Of a stretch of 64,000 bases of DNA, positions 53,170 through 56,220 are shown in pieces. The position numbers and the translations under genes were made by a program. Source of the stretch: Treponema brennaborense (GTDB taxonomy: Bacteria; Spirochaetota; Spirochaetia; Treponematales; Treponemataceae). The notes beneath the pieces are model-generated. The model did no database searches, had not been told where the DNA came from, and was given only the letters and a program-made list of their open reading frames with translations. How positions within the stretch are numbered: position 1 is the first letter of the stretch; every line of letters begins with the position of its first letter. The DNA lies in the NCBI GenBank assembly GCA_023666275.1, contig JAMPCJ010000010.1:1-64000 (forward strand). The letters run 5' to 3'.

Positions 53170-53276
53170 ACAACCAGAATATCATGAAGAATAAACAAAC
53201 TCAATTTTTTTTCCGAAAAATCCTTCTTTTTTTTCGGCGCCGCAGAAAATGCCGGCTCACGGGAACACCGCATTCG

Positions 53277-53348
53277 GCATCGCGGGAAGTGCCGCAGGCA
53301 CGGCAATTCGTCATCGCGAGAAGTGCCGCAGGCACGACGAAGCGATTC
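53277..53348. repeat. Two tandem palindromic repeats (GTCATCGCGAG family)
   Basis: CATCGCG-GAAGTGCCGCAGG recurs with a 34-base period (53278 and 53312). Each contains the hairpin GTGCC-GCA-GGCAC. The second copy continues into CGAAGCGATTC, so it resembles the element at 206-274. Confidence 0.65.
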
Positions 53349-53426: not shown

Positions 53427-53454
53427 TTGACACTACCCCCCCCCGTGCTATAAA
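53427..53454 (+). promoter_or_regulatory. Phase-variable promoter of the OMP operon (C9 in the spacer)
   Basis: A perfect TTGACA (53427-53432) and TATAAA (53449-53454) are separated by 16 bases, nine of which are an uninterrupted C run (53436-53444). Gain of one C gives the 17-base optimum; further changes weaken it. The start site would be near 53461, with AAGGAG at 53478-53483 for the gene at 53492. Confidence 0.85.
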
Positions 53455-53491
53455 AGCCTATCTTTTTTTATTATTTTAAGGAGTTTTTTGC

Positions 53492-54139
53492 ATGAAAAAA
53501 CAGCTGAAAAAAATCGTGCCGCTTTTGGCGGCAATGCTTGCCTGCGCGGCGGCTTCCGCCTGGGACTGGGGTTCTTACTGCGGCGCACTGGACGGAAAAC
53601 ATTGTATCTTTAAAGCCGGAATCGGGTACGGCGTCGCACCGGAAAAATGGGAGCAGAAAGCCGGCGCACCGTTTTCCGGTTCAAAACTAGACTCTGATAT
53701 AGCCACCGTACTTTCCGGTATCAGCGACAATACATTTCTCAACTTGACCAGCGGCTTTGTGCTTCCGGTTCAAATAGAATTTCTTCTCGGCAAGGTTCCG
53801 ATCGGAATTACGATGGGCTGCCGCTTTCAGTGGGGAAAAAACAAGGACATAGAACACGCTGTATTCAAAACGTTCAGTTCCGCCGTTATGGCAGGACTGG
53901 ACTATCACATGGCTCCCGGACCACGATGGCTCGACTTTTACGCGGGCGCAAAACTGGGAGGCAACTTCGGCTCTTTCACTGTTGAAAATACCTACTGGAA
54001 TGAGTCGGCAAAGAAAAGCAGCAAAGCCTTTGCATACGACGTACATGCGGGCGCAACGTTTTGGGGAGAACATGTCGGCATAAATACGGAAATAGGCAGC
54101 CTCACCAAACTGAGCATGTCGCTGATTTTCAATTTCTAG
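53492..54139 (+). CDS. Outer-membrane beta-barrel protein (candidate, phase-variable)
   Basis: 215 residues. A signal peptide (cleavage probably after ASA at about 23) is followed by alternating polar/hydrophobic strands rich in Gly and aromatics, ending in SLIFNF with a C-terminal Phe as in BAM substrates. The size fits an eight-stranded barrel (OmpW/OmpA-like class). In T. pallidum the OmpW-like TP0126 is controlled by a homopolymer in its promoter, and this gene has the same arrangement. A lipoprotein gene follows after 21 bases. The family is not confirmed; the barrel is inferred. Confidence 0.75.
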   Translation: MKKQLKKIVPLLAAMLACAAASAWDWGSYCGALDGKHCIFKAGIGYGVAPEKWEQKAGAPFSGSKLDSDIATVLSGISDNTFLNLTSGFVLPVQIEFLLGKVPIGITMGCRFQWGKNKDIEHAVFKTFSSAVMAGLDYHMAPGPRWLDFYAGAKLGGNFGSFTVENTYWNESAKKSSKAFAYDVHAGATFWGEHVGINTEIGSLTKLSMSLIFNF

Positions 54140-54160: not shown

Positions 54161-54655
54161 ATGAAAAAATTTCATTTTATCCCGATACTCTGTGCGGTTT
54201 TCTGCGCGGGAGCATTATTGGCAGGCTGCTCCGATTCTTTGGTGGTCAGCTCCGGCGGAGGTGGCGGCGGCAGCGGCAGCAGTACGAGCGGCGGCAGTTC
54301 ATCAAGCGGAAGCGTCTCCGGCGGTGGTACACCTAGCGGCAGCAGTGGCGGCGGCTCTGTCTCCGACAGCGCGGAGGGGGGGGGTACCAATAGCAGCTAC
54401 GACAACAGCAGCTATTCGTTAAGCGGCACAACGTGGATTGAACCAAATTCCGGAATAACCTTGAGTTTTTACGACAACAATGAGGTATGTTATACAGAAC
54501 CTGTAGCATATGATACTTATTATTCTTATTCCTACAACTCTTATGGCTATAACGATGGTTCGGGAACTGCTTATGTGGCAGACACTGCGGTACTTTTCTC
54601 TGTTTCGGGAAGTACGCTTGTTTGGGACGGGCTGACTTTCTATCAAAACTACTAG
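54161..54655 (+). CDS. Surface lipoprotein candidate with phase-variable G9 tract
   Basis: 164 residues. The signal peptide ends LLAGC (Cys23 lipidated). A Gly/Ser-only linker (about 30-75) precedes a small beta-rich domain (about 85-164) containing a Tyr/Ser-rich strand (DTYYSYSYNSYGY). G9 at 54376-54384 encodes Glu72-Gly-Gly-Gly75; one extra G gives TAG three codons past the tract and one fewer gives TAA about 12 codons on, so only this length (or plus or minus three) makes the full protein. It is the second gene of the OMP operon. The domain is not recognised. Confidence 0.75.
   Translation: MKKFHFIPILCAVFCAGALLAGCSDSLVVSSGGGGGGSGSSTSGGSSSSGSVSGGGTPSGSSGGGSVSDSAEGGGTNSSYDNSSYSLSGTTWIEPNSGITLSFYDNNEVCYTEPVAYDTYYSYSYNSYGYNDGSGTAYVADTAVLFSVSGSTLVWDGLTFYQNY
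54376..54384. repeat. G9 homopolymer in a coding region
   Basis: Nine consecutive G in the lipoprotein gene, in frame, at the end of the Gly/Ser linker. It is a slipped-strand mispairing site by its length. Confidence 0.9.
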
Positions 54656-54703: not shown

Positions 54704-55039
54704 ATGATGCAATTGTTTTCAGACATTTTTGAAAAATTTCTTGATGTCATTTCGGTTCTCATTTTGATTGCGGGCGCCATTGTCGGCGGAATAATCGGCA
54801 ACTCTTTTGATCATCTCATGATGGGAGTGATAATCGGTCTTTTGGCGGTTTTTATTTCCGAAGTCTTTATTTTCGGATCGCTTGCGCAAATCATTGCCAT
54901 AAAAACGCTTTTGGAAGAGCAAAGCAAGATGCTGAAGAAAATAGCAGACAACGCTGCGTACAGCAGCTCAAAACAGGAAAAGCAAAGCAATATTTCACAA
55001 AAGATTCCGCCGAGCAATCTCCACACTAACGGCGAGTAA
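54704..55039 (+). CDS. Small membrane protein with cytoplasmic coiled coil
   Basis: 111 residues. AAGGAGG precedes ATG 54704 (a second ATG follows directly). Two transmembrane helices (about 12-33 and 39-62, rich in Gly in GAIVGGIIGNSF) are followed by a short helix LLEEQSKMLKKIADN and a polar tail. No family is recognised. It lies 48 bases after the lipoprotein gene and is followed by a terminator, so it is probably the last gene of the OMP operon. Confidence 0.65.
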   Translation: MMQLFSDIFEKFLDVISVLILIAGAIVGGIIGNSFDHLMMGVIIGLLAVFISEVFIFGSLAQIIAIKTLLEEQSKMLKKIADNAAYSSSKQEKQSNISQKIPPSNLHTNGE

Positions 55040-55084: not shown

Positions 55085-55130
55085 AAAAAAAATCGGCAGT
55101 GCAAAACAAAATGCACTGCCGATTTTTTTT
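55085..55130. terminator. Bidirectional intrinsic terminator
   Basis: ATCGGCAGTGCA and TGCACTGCCGAT form a perfect 12-bp stem with an 8-base loop, flanked by A8 on the left and T8 on the right. It ends the OMP operon (plus) and the porin gene (minus). Confidence 0.95.
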
Positions 55131-55149
55131 AATGCGTATTCAATTCACA

Positions 55150-56220
55150 TTAAAATGAATAAACCCAGGAAAGCGGGAATTTCACGAACGCATTGCCGTC
55201 CCGGAATTCAATGTCGGCGGCAACGGAAAATTCATGACTGCCGAACGTAAAACCGAGCGAAGGTTCGATTCCGAAAGCCGGCTTTTCTTCCGTGTCGCCG
55301 AAATCCAAAAAGCACTGTCCGCCGAGCCCAGCCGACAATTTTTCATTGATGCCGTAGCCCACGTTTGCGCCGATATACATGTCGTAGGGATTATCAGCGT
55401 CGTCGGAATCCGTGTCGGCGGCGACTTCCGCAGCAATCGCAAAATCGCTCACATTCCATTCAACTGAAGCGTTGATGATGTTTTTTCCCTCAAGCGAAAT
55501 GCTTTCCGAATAATCCAATTCTTCCAGCGCGCCGCCGCCCTCGTAATGACCGAAGCCCGCGCGGATAATCAAGTCATCGGACTGAAGCGGACGAACCATT
55601 GCGAAAATGCCGAAATTCCGTTCGTCGCCGTCGGCAATGTCGTTAACCTTTGCGCCGATCGAAAACAGCTCGCCGAAATCATATTCCGCACCGATGCCGA
55701 AATTAAATGGATTGGGTTCTCCGTCATTGTCTTCGCCGTTAAAAAAGTTTCTGCCCTCCAGCGGAATCGTCGCCGCAATCCGCAGCCCTTCAATCGGTTC
55801 TGCCATCAGCGTGAAACCGTCGGAACCGAGTCCGCCCGCGCCCGCGTTGTCGTCCCAAACCGGCAGGTACGAACCGTTCATCCACAAATCGTCGTGGAAT
55901 GCAAGCGTGAGCATGTTTATCGGACGGAAATGCAGCCAATAATCCGGATCCGACCAAGCAAGATACAAATGGTCGGTGTCAGCCGTGTCGAGGCTGAATT
56001 CGACTTCGAGATACGCGTCCACTTTTTCCGAAGAAAATTCCACGGAAGCGTTTTCCGAAATGCCTGCGAAATTCGTTTCATTTTCGTTGCCGGTAAACTT
56101 GTTGTCAACAGTTACGACATCGGAAGAAACCTCGTTCGCAAAACTGAATTCCTGCGCGCAAAGTGCGGACGCGCCGAAAACCGAAATCGCCGCCAGCGAA
56201 ATCAAAATTCTTTTGTTCAT
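55150..56220 (-). CDS. Porin-like outer-membrane beta-barrel protein
   Basis: 356 residues. A signal peptide (MNKRILISLAAISVFGASALCA) is followed by some 16 amphipathic strands with acidic loops (DTADTD, NGEDNDGEPN, DTDSDDADN), ending FPLSWVYSF with a C-terminal Phe. The acidic loops and barrel layout recall treponemal porin-like families, but the exact family is not clear. AAGGAG precedes the ATG. A palindrome sits between the promoter region and the start. Monocistronic. Confidence 0.78.
   Translation of the reverse strand: MNKRILISLAAISVFGASALCAQEFSFANEVSSDVVTVDNKFTGNENETNFAGISENASVEFSSEKVDAYLEVEFSLDTADTDHLYLAWSDPDYWLHFRPINMLTLAFHDDLWMNGSYLPVWDDNAGAGGLGSDGFTLMAEPIEGLRIAATIPLEGRNFFNGEDNDGEPNPFNFGIGAEYDFGELFSIGAKVNDIADGDERNFGIFAMVRPLQSDDLIIRAGFGHYEGGGALEELDYSESISLEGKNIINASVEWNVSDFAIAAEVAADTDSDDADNPYDMYIGANVGYGINEKLSAGLGGQCFLDFGDTEEKPAFGIEPSLGFTFGSHEFSVAADIEFRDGNAFVKFPLSWVYSF

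Follow-up and report, generated by a model that had tools for sequence, protein, structure and literature searches.

We find that the promoter at positions 53427-53454 of the window (the whole stretch of 64,000 nt analysed from a Treponema brennaborense contig) is very probably a phase-variable sigma-70 promoter of the spacer-tract type, in which a homopolymer lies between the -35 and -10 boxes, and that it is one case of a genome-wide set. Its anatomy, the non-random set of tracts to which it belongs, their conservation and the differences in tract length between species are established here. Switching through the promoter spacer has been described for individual genes of a few pathogens. In this treponeme, which is not T. 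pallidum, it appears as a design repeated and conserved across the genome, and gut bacteria from other phyla seem to have acquired the same design independently. From such a design one can predict the surface proteins that vary, and the direction of slippage that raises their expression.

The promoter reads TTGACA-CTA-CCCCCCCCC-GTGC-TATAAA on the forward strand, and comprises a perfect -35 box (TTGACA, 6/6; 53427-53432), a 16-nt spacer (CTA-CCCCCCCCC-GTGC; 53433-53448) and a -10 box matching consensus at 5/6 positions (TATAAA; 53449-53454). An exact C9 homopolymer (53436-53444), the proposed slippage tract, falls entirely inside the spacer and leaves both boxes intact, as in promoters of the porA and TP0126 type; the preliminary description, which had reported a TTGACA and a TATAAA held 16 nt apart with nine unbroken C in between, is confirmed exactly, coordinates included. 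The arrangement TTGACA-N14-19-TATAAA occurs once in the 64-kb window, against 0.03 expected from shuffles, and a scan for consensus promoters passes over the site because its -10 box has no final T. The last three bases of the spacer form an extended -10 element (TGC; 53446-53448), which may render the response graded rather than on/off; such elements can also lower the sensitivity of a promoter to spacer length, and this counts against a switch. Transcription is expected, from the position of the -10 box, to start at 53461, followed by a Shine-Dalgarno sequence (AAGGAG; 53478-53483) and by the start codon of the first gene at 53492. Immediately 5' of the promoter lies a tandem 34-nt intergenic repeat (CATCGCGAGAAGTGCCGCAGGCACG; 53272-53336).

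The first gene (53492-54139, +) encodes a 215-aa signal-peptide outer-membrane protein. An AlphaFold2 model built from seven aligned family members has eight beta-strands at a mean pLDDT of 74, and matches the solved eight-stranded barrels OprF, OmpA, NspA and OmpW at Z 14-15; OmpW chains score about 14, and OmpA and OprF score equally, so that the comparison identifies the fold class only. By prediction only, then, the promoter drives a surface protein, and the earlier designation of the gene as a signal-peptide beta-barrel candidate agrees with the modelled structure. That the gene is different from TP0126, as had also been proposed, appears to hold: the Pfam OmpW model has no match at E<=0.01 in this genome, although the test is insensitive, since a genome that may be T. 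pallidum (G019) also yielded no match and the model may therefore miss treponemal members. Assignment of the protein to the LpxR lipid A deacylases was rejected (16 bits, against a Pfam cut-off of 26). A scan of GTDB contig proteins returned no relatives, and those described below came from a whole-genome search.

The second operon gene begins 21 nt past the first, and encodes a 164-aa lipoprotein with an LLAGC lipobox (54161-54655, +). Within its coding sequence is a G9 tract (54376-54384, +), in frame as assembled, and since a change in its length would shift the lipoprotein frame, a second, independent and translational switch is possible. A further small membrane protein (111 aa; 54704-55039, +), which has a separate AAGGAGG and for which family searches gave no clear family, is possibly co-transcribed. 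A 13-bp hairpin followed by a T run (55091-55131, +) is the likely terminator, common to the operon and to a convergent porin-like gene (55150-56220, -).

Two paralogues of the barrel gene, C1:77524 (74% protein identity) and C1:75514 (46%), are located 22-24 kb from the window locus, one contig carrying all three cassettes. Both possess TTGACA, C9 (C1:77468-77476 and C1:75458-75466, respectively) and TATAAA, and in both the tract stops 48 bases 5' of the start codon; the spacer of the 75514 paralogue is 15 nt long. Among the three copies, identity from the -35 box to the start codon is 91-95%, whereas mature coding DNA is 53-78% identical and the 200 bases upstream about 50%, making the promoter a conserved island. 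As regards the surroundings of these cassettes, a stretch resembling the 34-nt repeat also precedes the 75514 paralogue, and about ten TTCATACGTATGAA-like palindromes, reminiscent of an array of regulator sites, occur 150-400 bp 5' of it (L004 11070-11300). The lipoprotein gene 3' of the 77524 paralogue (L004 14191-14521) carries a frameshift beside its lipobox relative to the window copy, and consequently looks broken.

Orthologues of the barrel exist at 44-45% identity in two Treponema MAGs, G191 and G176. The G191 promoter reads TTGACA-TA-C9-ATTGA-TATAAT, with a 16-nt spacer, while that of G176 shares this layout with an extra ACCC after the C9, giving a spacer of 20 nt. A lipoprotein family common to this genome, G191 and G176 has tracts of C9, C8 and C10 among the three, each accompanied by seven non-tract spacer bases, yielding spacers of 16, 15 and 17 nt. 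Similar promoters thus differ in tract length (C8/C9/C10 at the lipoprotein, C9 versus C9ACCC at the barrel), and do so between species only, the lipoprotein orthologues being, on sequence comparison, the closest approach to observed tract variation. Together with retention of the tract in both paralogues and in the orthologues of two Treponema genomes, these orthologues lend support to the phase-variable reading that had been proposed for this promoter. Elsewhere in the family, 11 of the 13 matches to TTGAC-N-C7-N-TATAA among 190 genomes come from this genome and G176 (two in total for the reversed control). A profile search recovered weaker members of the barrel family from many other treponemes, mostly lacking a tract, which indicates that the tract has been gained or lost by lineage. 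In two of these other treponemes the barrel orthologues (L189, L190) are preceded by TTGACA-AAAGT(C/T)-G8-TAGAAT, apparently an independent gain of a spacer tract.

Long G/C runs are unusually common in this genome (G000), for which the stretches around tracts and one contig were examined. On that 90-kb contig, runs of length 4 to 9 number 143, 8, 1, 0, 2 and 4, so that the distribution has few runs of 5-7 and, after a gap, a second peak, the shape to be expected of slippage tracts that are maintained. Over the whole genome, 44 runs reach nine or more, where a first-order model predicts 2.6; the octamer count and run lengths imply 34 runs of exactly nine, 8 of ten and 2 of eleven, besides 28 of exactly eight. 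The pattern TTGAC-N-C7-N-TATAA is matched four times (reversed control, zero), and six C9 runs lie between promoter boxes, downstream of TTGAC, and precede barrel or lipoprotein genes. Three of the six precede predicted lipoprotein genes (C10:98089(-), C2:16154 and C13:75102(-)), the last two having poorer -10 boxes. A lipobox was found near the tract in 8 of the 44 cases, against a 5% background (p=0.002), by a crude automatic search whose calls at L014 and L017 proved to be barrel signal peptides and not lipoproteins.

Runs of G9 or G10 also occur in lipoprotein signal peptides or around the lipobox at L023, L032, L034, L037, L062, L065 and L069 of this genome, and likewise at the contig ends L019-L021; examples of the sequence at the lipobox are LAILGGGILAFAAAGC and LLTGGGIFFSC. 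In several of these the assembled sequence puts the hydrophobic signal out of phase with the lipobox, which suggests that many lipoproteins are switched on and off at translation. Another G9 (C14:44380-44389, L042) sits just 5' of an acyl-carrier-protein gene, near its 5' end, and may switch the synthesis of surface lipid or glycan at the translational level.

Under the proposed mechanism, slipped-strand mispairing during replication would add or remove C residues in the C9 run. Each such step would change the 16-nt distance between the -35 and -10 boxes by one base, and would rotate the boxes relative to each other as well. By analogy with TP0126 and porA, RNA polymerase should bind best near 17 nt, so that expression would be highest with C10, which gives that spacing, and lower with C8 or C11-12. 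The promoter would yield a small beta-barrel exposed at the surface together with a lipoprotein; as two paralogous cassettes carry the same switch, a population would hold mixed expression states of several surface proteins.

This scheme has precedents. In T. pallidum, TP0126 is transcribed best when the spacer tract gives 17 nt, and in Neisseria meningitidis porA a homopolymer lies between the -35 and -10 boxes, as here, and spacing controls transcription (both as described in PMC7864442); clones of T. pallidum Nichols differ from one another in the length of 24 out of 46 G/C tracts of at least eight (PMC10013896). The likeness to TP0126 extends to a spirochaete host, a homopolymer wholly in the spacer, an outer-membrane barrel gene and an expected optimum of 17 nt (PMC7864442). 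However, the tract is poly-G in TP0126 and C on the coding strand here, the present protein has no OmpW-family match (an insensitive test), and here three paralogous cassettes and further lipoprotein promoters carry the tract. porA differs in phylum and gene, and has a poly-G tract in a single-copy promoter. Neisseria opc and Bordetella fim2, fim3 and fimX likewise have poly-C in surface-protein promoters and length-dependent expression, yet their tracts overlap the -35 region or set activator distance; this type was rejected for the C9 promoter, which has a perfect TTGACA outside the tract. With neither box touched by the tract, the promoter is of the porA and TP0126 kind and not of the opc and fim kind.

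Spacer lengths bear on the direction of switching. The most frequent spacing of tract-free TTGACA-TATAAT pairs in three Treponema genomes is 17 nt, and 78 of 90 such pairs fall at 16-18 nt, compared to 4 of 15 tract promoters (p=4.5e-6, in a sample where orthologues are not independent); the other 11 tract promoters have spacers of 15 or 19-20 nt, against 12 of the 90 tract-free pairs outside 16-18 nt. Across four groups of genomes, one of 75 tract promoters has a 17-nt spacer, and spacers cluster at 15-16 nt. In its assembled, majority form a tract promoter therefore usually seems to be away from the optimum, as would be the case if these promoters are turned up by single slips. Alternatively, a changed spacing optimum on a stiff poly-C helix could account for the off-optimum spacers.

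A rival possibility is that the C9 is a fixed element that sets promoter strength through the stiffness of its GC helix or through a protein bound to it, with no meaningful variation of tract length within populations. In keeping with this, C9 is far the commonest length in the same four groups of genomes (62 of 75 assembled tracts are exactly nine), spacers show clustering and no even spread, and tracts are identical in one orthologous Mucispirillum pair (both C9, which counts against the switch) and in a cas12a pair. This narrow peak at C9 is the chief argument against fast switching, and might reflect either slow slippage or an element that is fixed. However, nine is also the mode outside promoters, coding DNA included (34 of the 44 runs), and is thus not a promoter-specific length; moreover, orthologous promoters do differ (C8/C9/C10, and C9 versus C9ACCC), both C and G versions exist, and flanking bases differ freely. 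On balance we regard a fixed element as unlikely.

Recent duplication or conversion of a cassette might also explain three like promoters with a functionless tract, given that one contig carries all three and that they have upstream repeat fragments in common. Promoter identity is nevertheless still 91-95% where protein identity has fallen to 46-74%, and the same layout recurs at unrelated lipoprotein genes and in other species, which leaves copying by descent very improbable. Since homopolymers are error-prone and a single assembled genome is at issue, a chance run or an assembly artefact might likewise be suspected; yet the tract occurs at three loci here and in independent assemblies, the 44 long runs far exceed the 2.6 expected, and reversed-pattern controls of the same genomes are zero, so that this explanation is extremely unlikely. 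A phase-variable promoter accordingly remains our preferred reading.

A tract of this kind is also found upstream of a CRISPR-Cas locus. In G191 and G176, TTGACA-N7-G9-TGT-TATAAT (L225 7628-7658 (-) in G191 and C39:5630-5660 (-) in G176), with a 19-nt spacer, lies about 135 bp 5' of a complete Cas12a gene (1321 aa, TIGR04330), which in G191 is accompanied by cas4, cas1 and an array of 13 Cas12a-type repeats. A phase-variable CRISPR-Cas system in these two Treponema species is possible, and a second TATAAT nearer the Cas12a gene may be a tract-free promoter. We found no report of phase-variable Cas12a in the open-access literature, itself weak evidence.

Beyond spirochaetes, a GTDB-wide search for TTGACA-N2-4-C8-N3-7-TATAA returned at least 113 stretches, with uncultured Clostridia and Mucispirillum dominating among the matches listed. 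In 13 of these genomes (Mucispirillum and uncultured Clostridia MAGs) the pattern occurs 2 to 10 times per genome, and never in the reversed control; as the genomes were chosen for having one match, only the excess over one counts. Many of the genes downstream begin with lipoprotein or signal-peptide sequences. A rule that the coding strand carries only C is true in this genome and fails generally, G-run versions occurring elsewhere. Our search of the open-access literature yielded no report of phase-variable promoters in Mucispirillum (again weak evidence), and as far as that literature shows, the multi-gene, multi-phylum extent of spacer tracts is new. A serious, though still tentative, possibility is a promoter-spacer phasome, evolved independently by host-associated bacteria of at least three phyla (Treponema, Mucispirillum, uncultured Clostridia), with C9 or G9 between the boxes of many promoters per genome, usually 1-2 bases off optimum, and with targets that include surface lipoproteins, barrels and, in two Treponema species, the Cas12a operon; an off-optimum tract length would let single slips switch genes up. 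Among the GTDB contigs L071-L183, the boxes around the tract are often near-identical, as in TTGACATT-C9-ATGATATAAT and TTGACAAAT-C9-GAGTATAAT.
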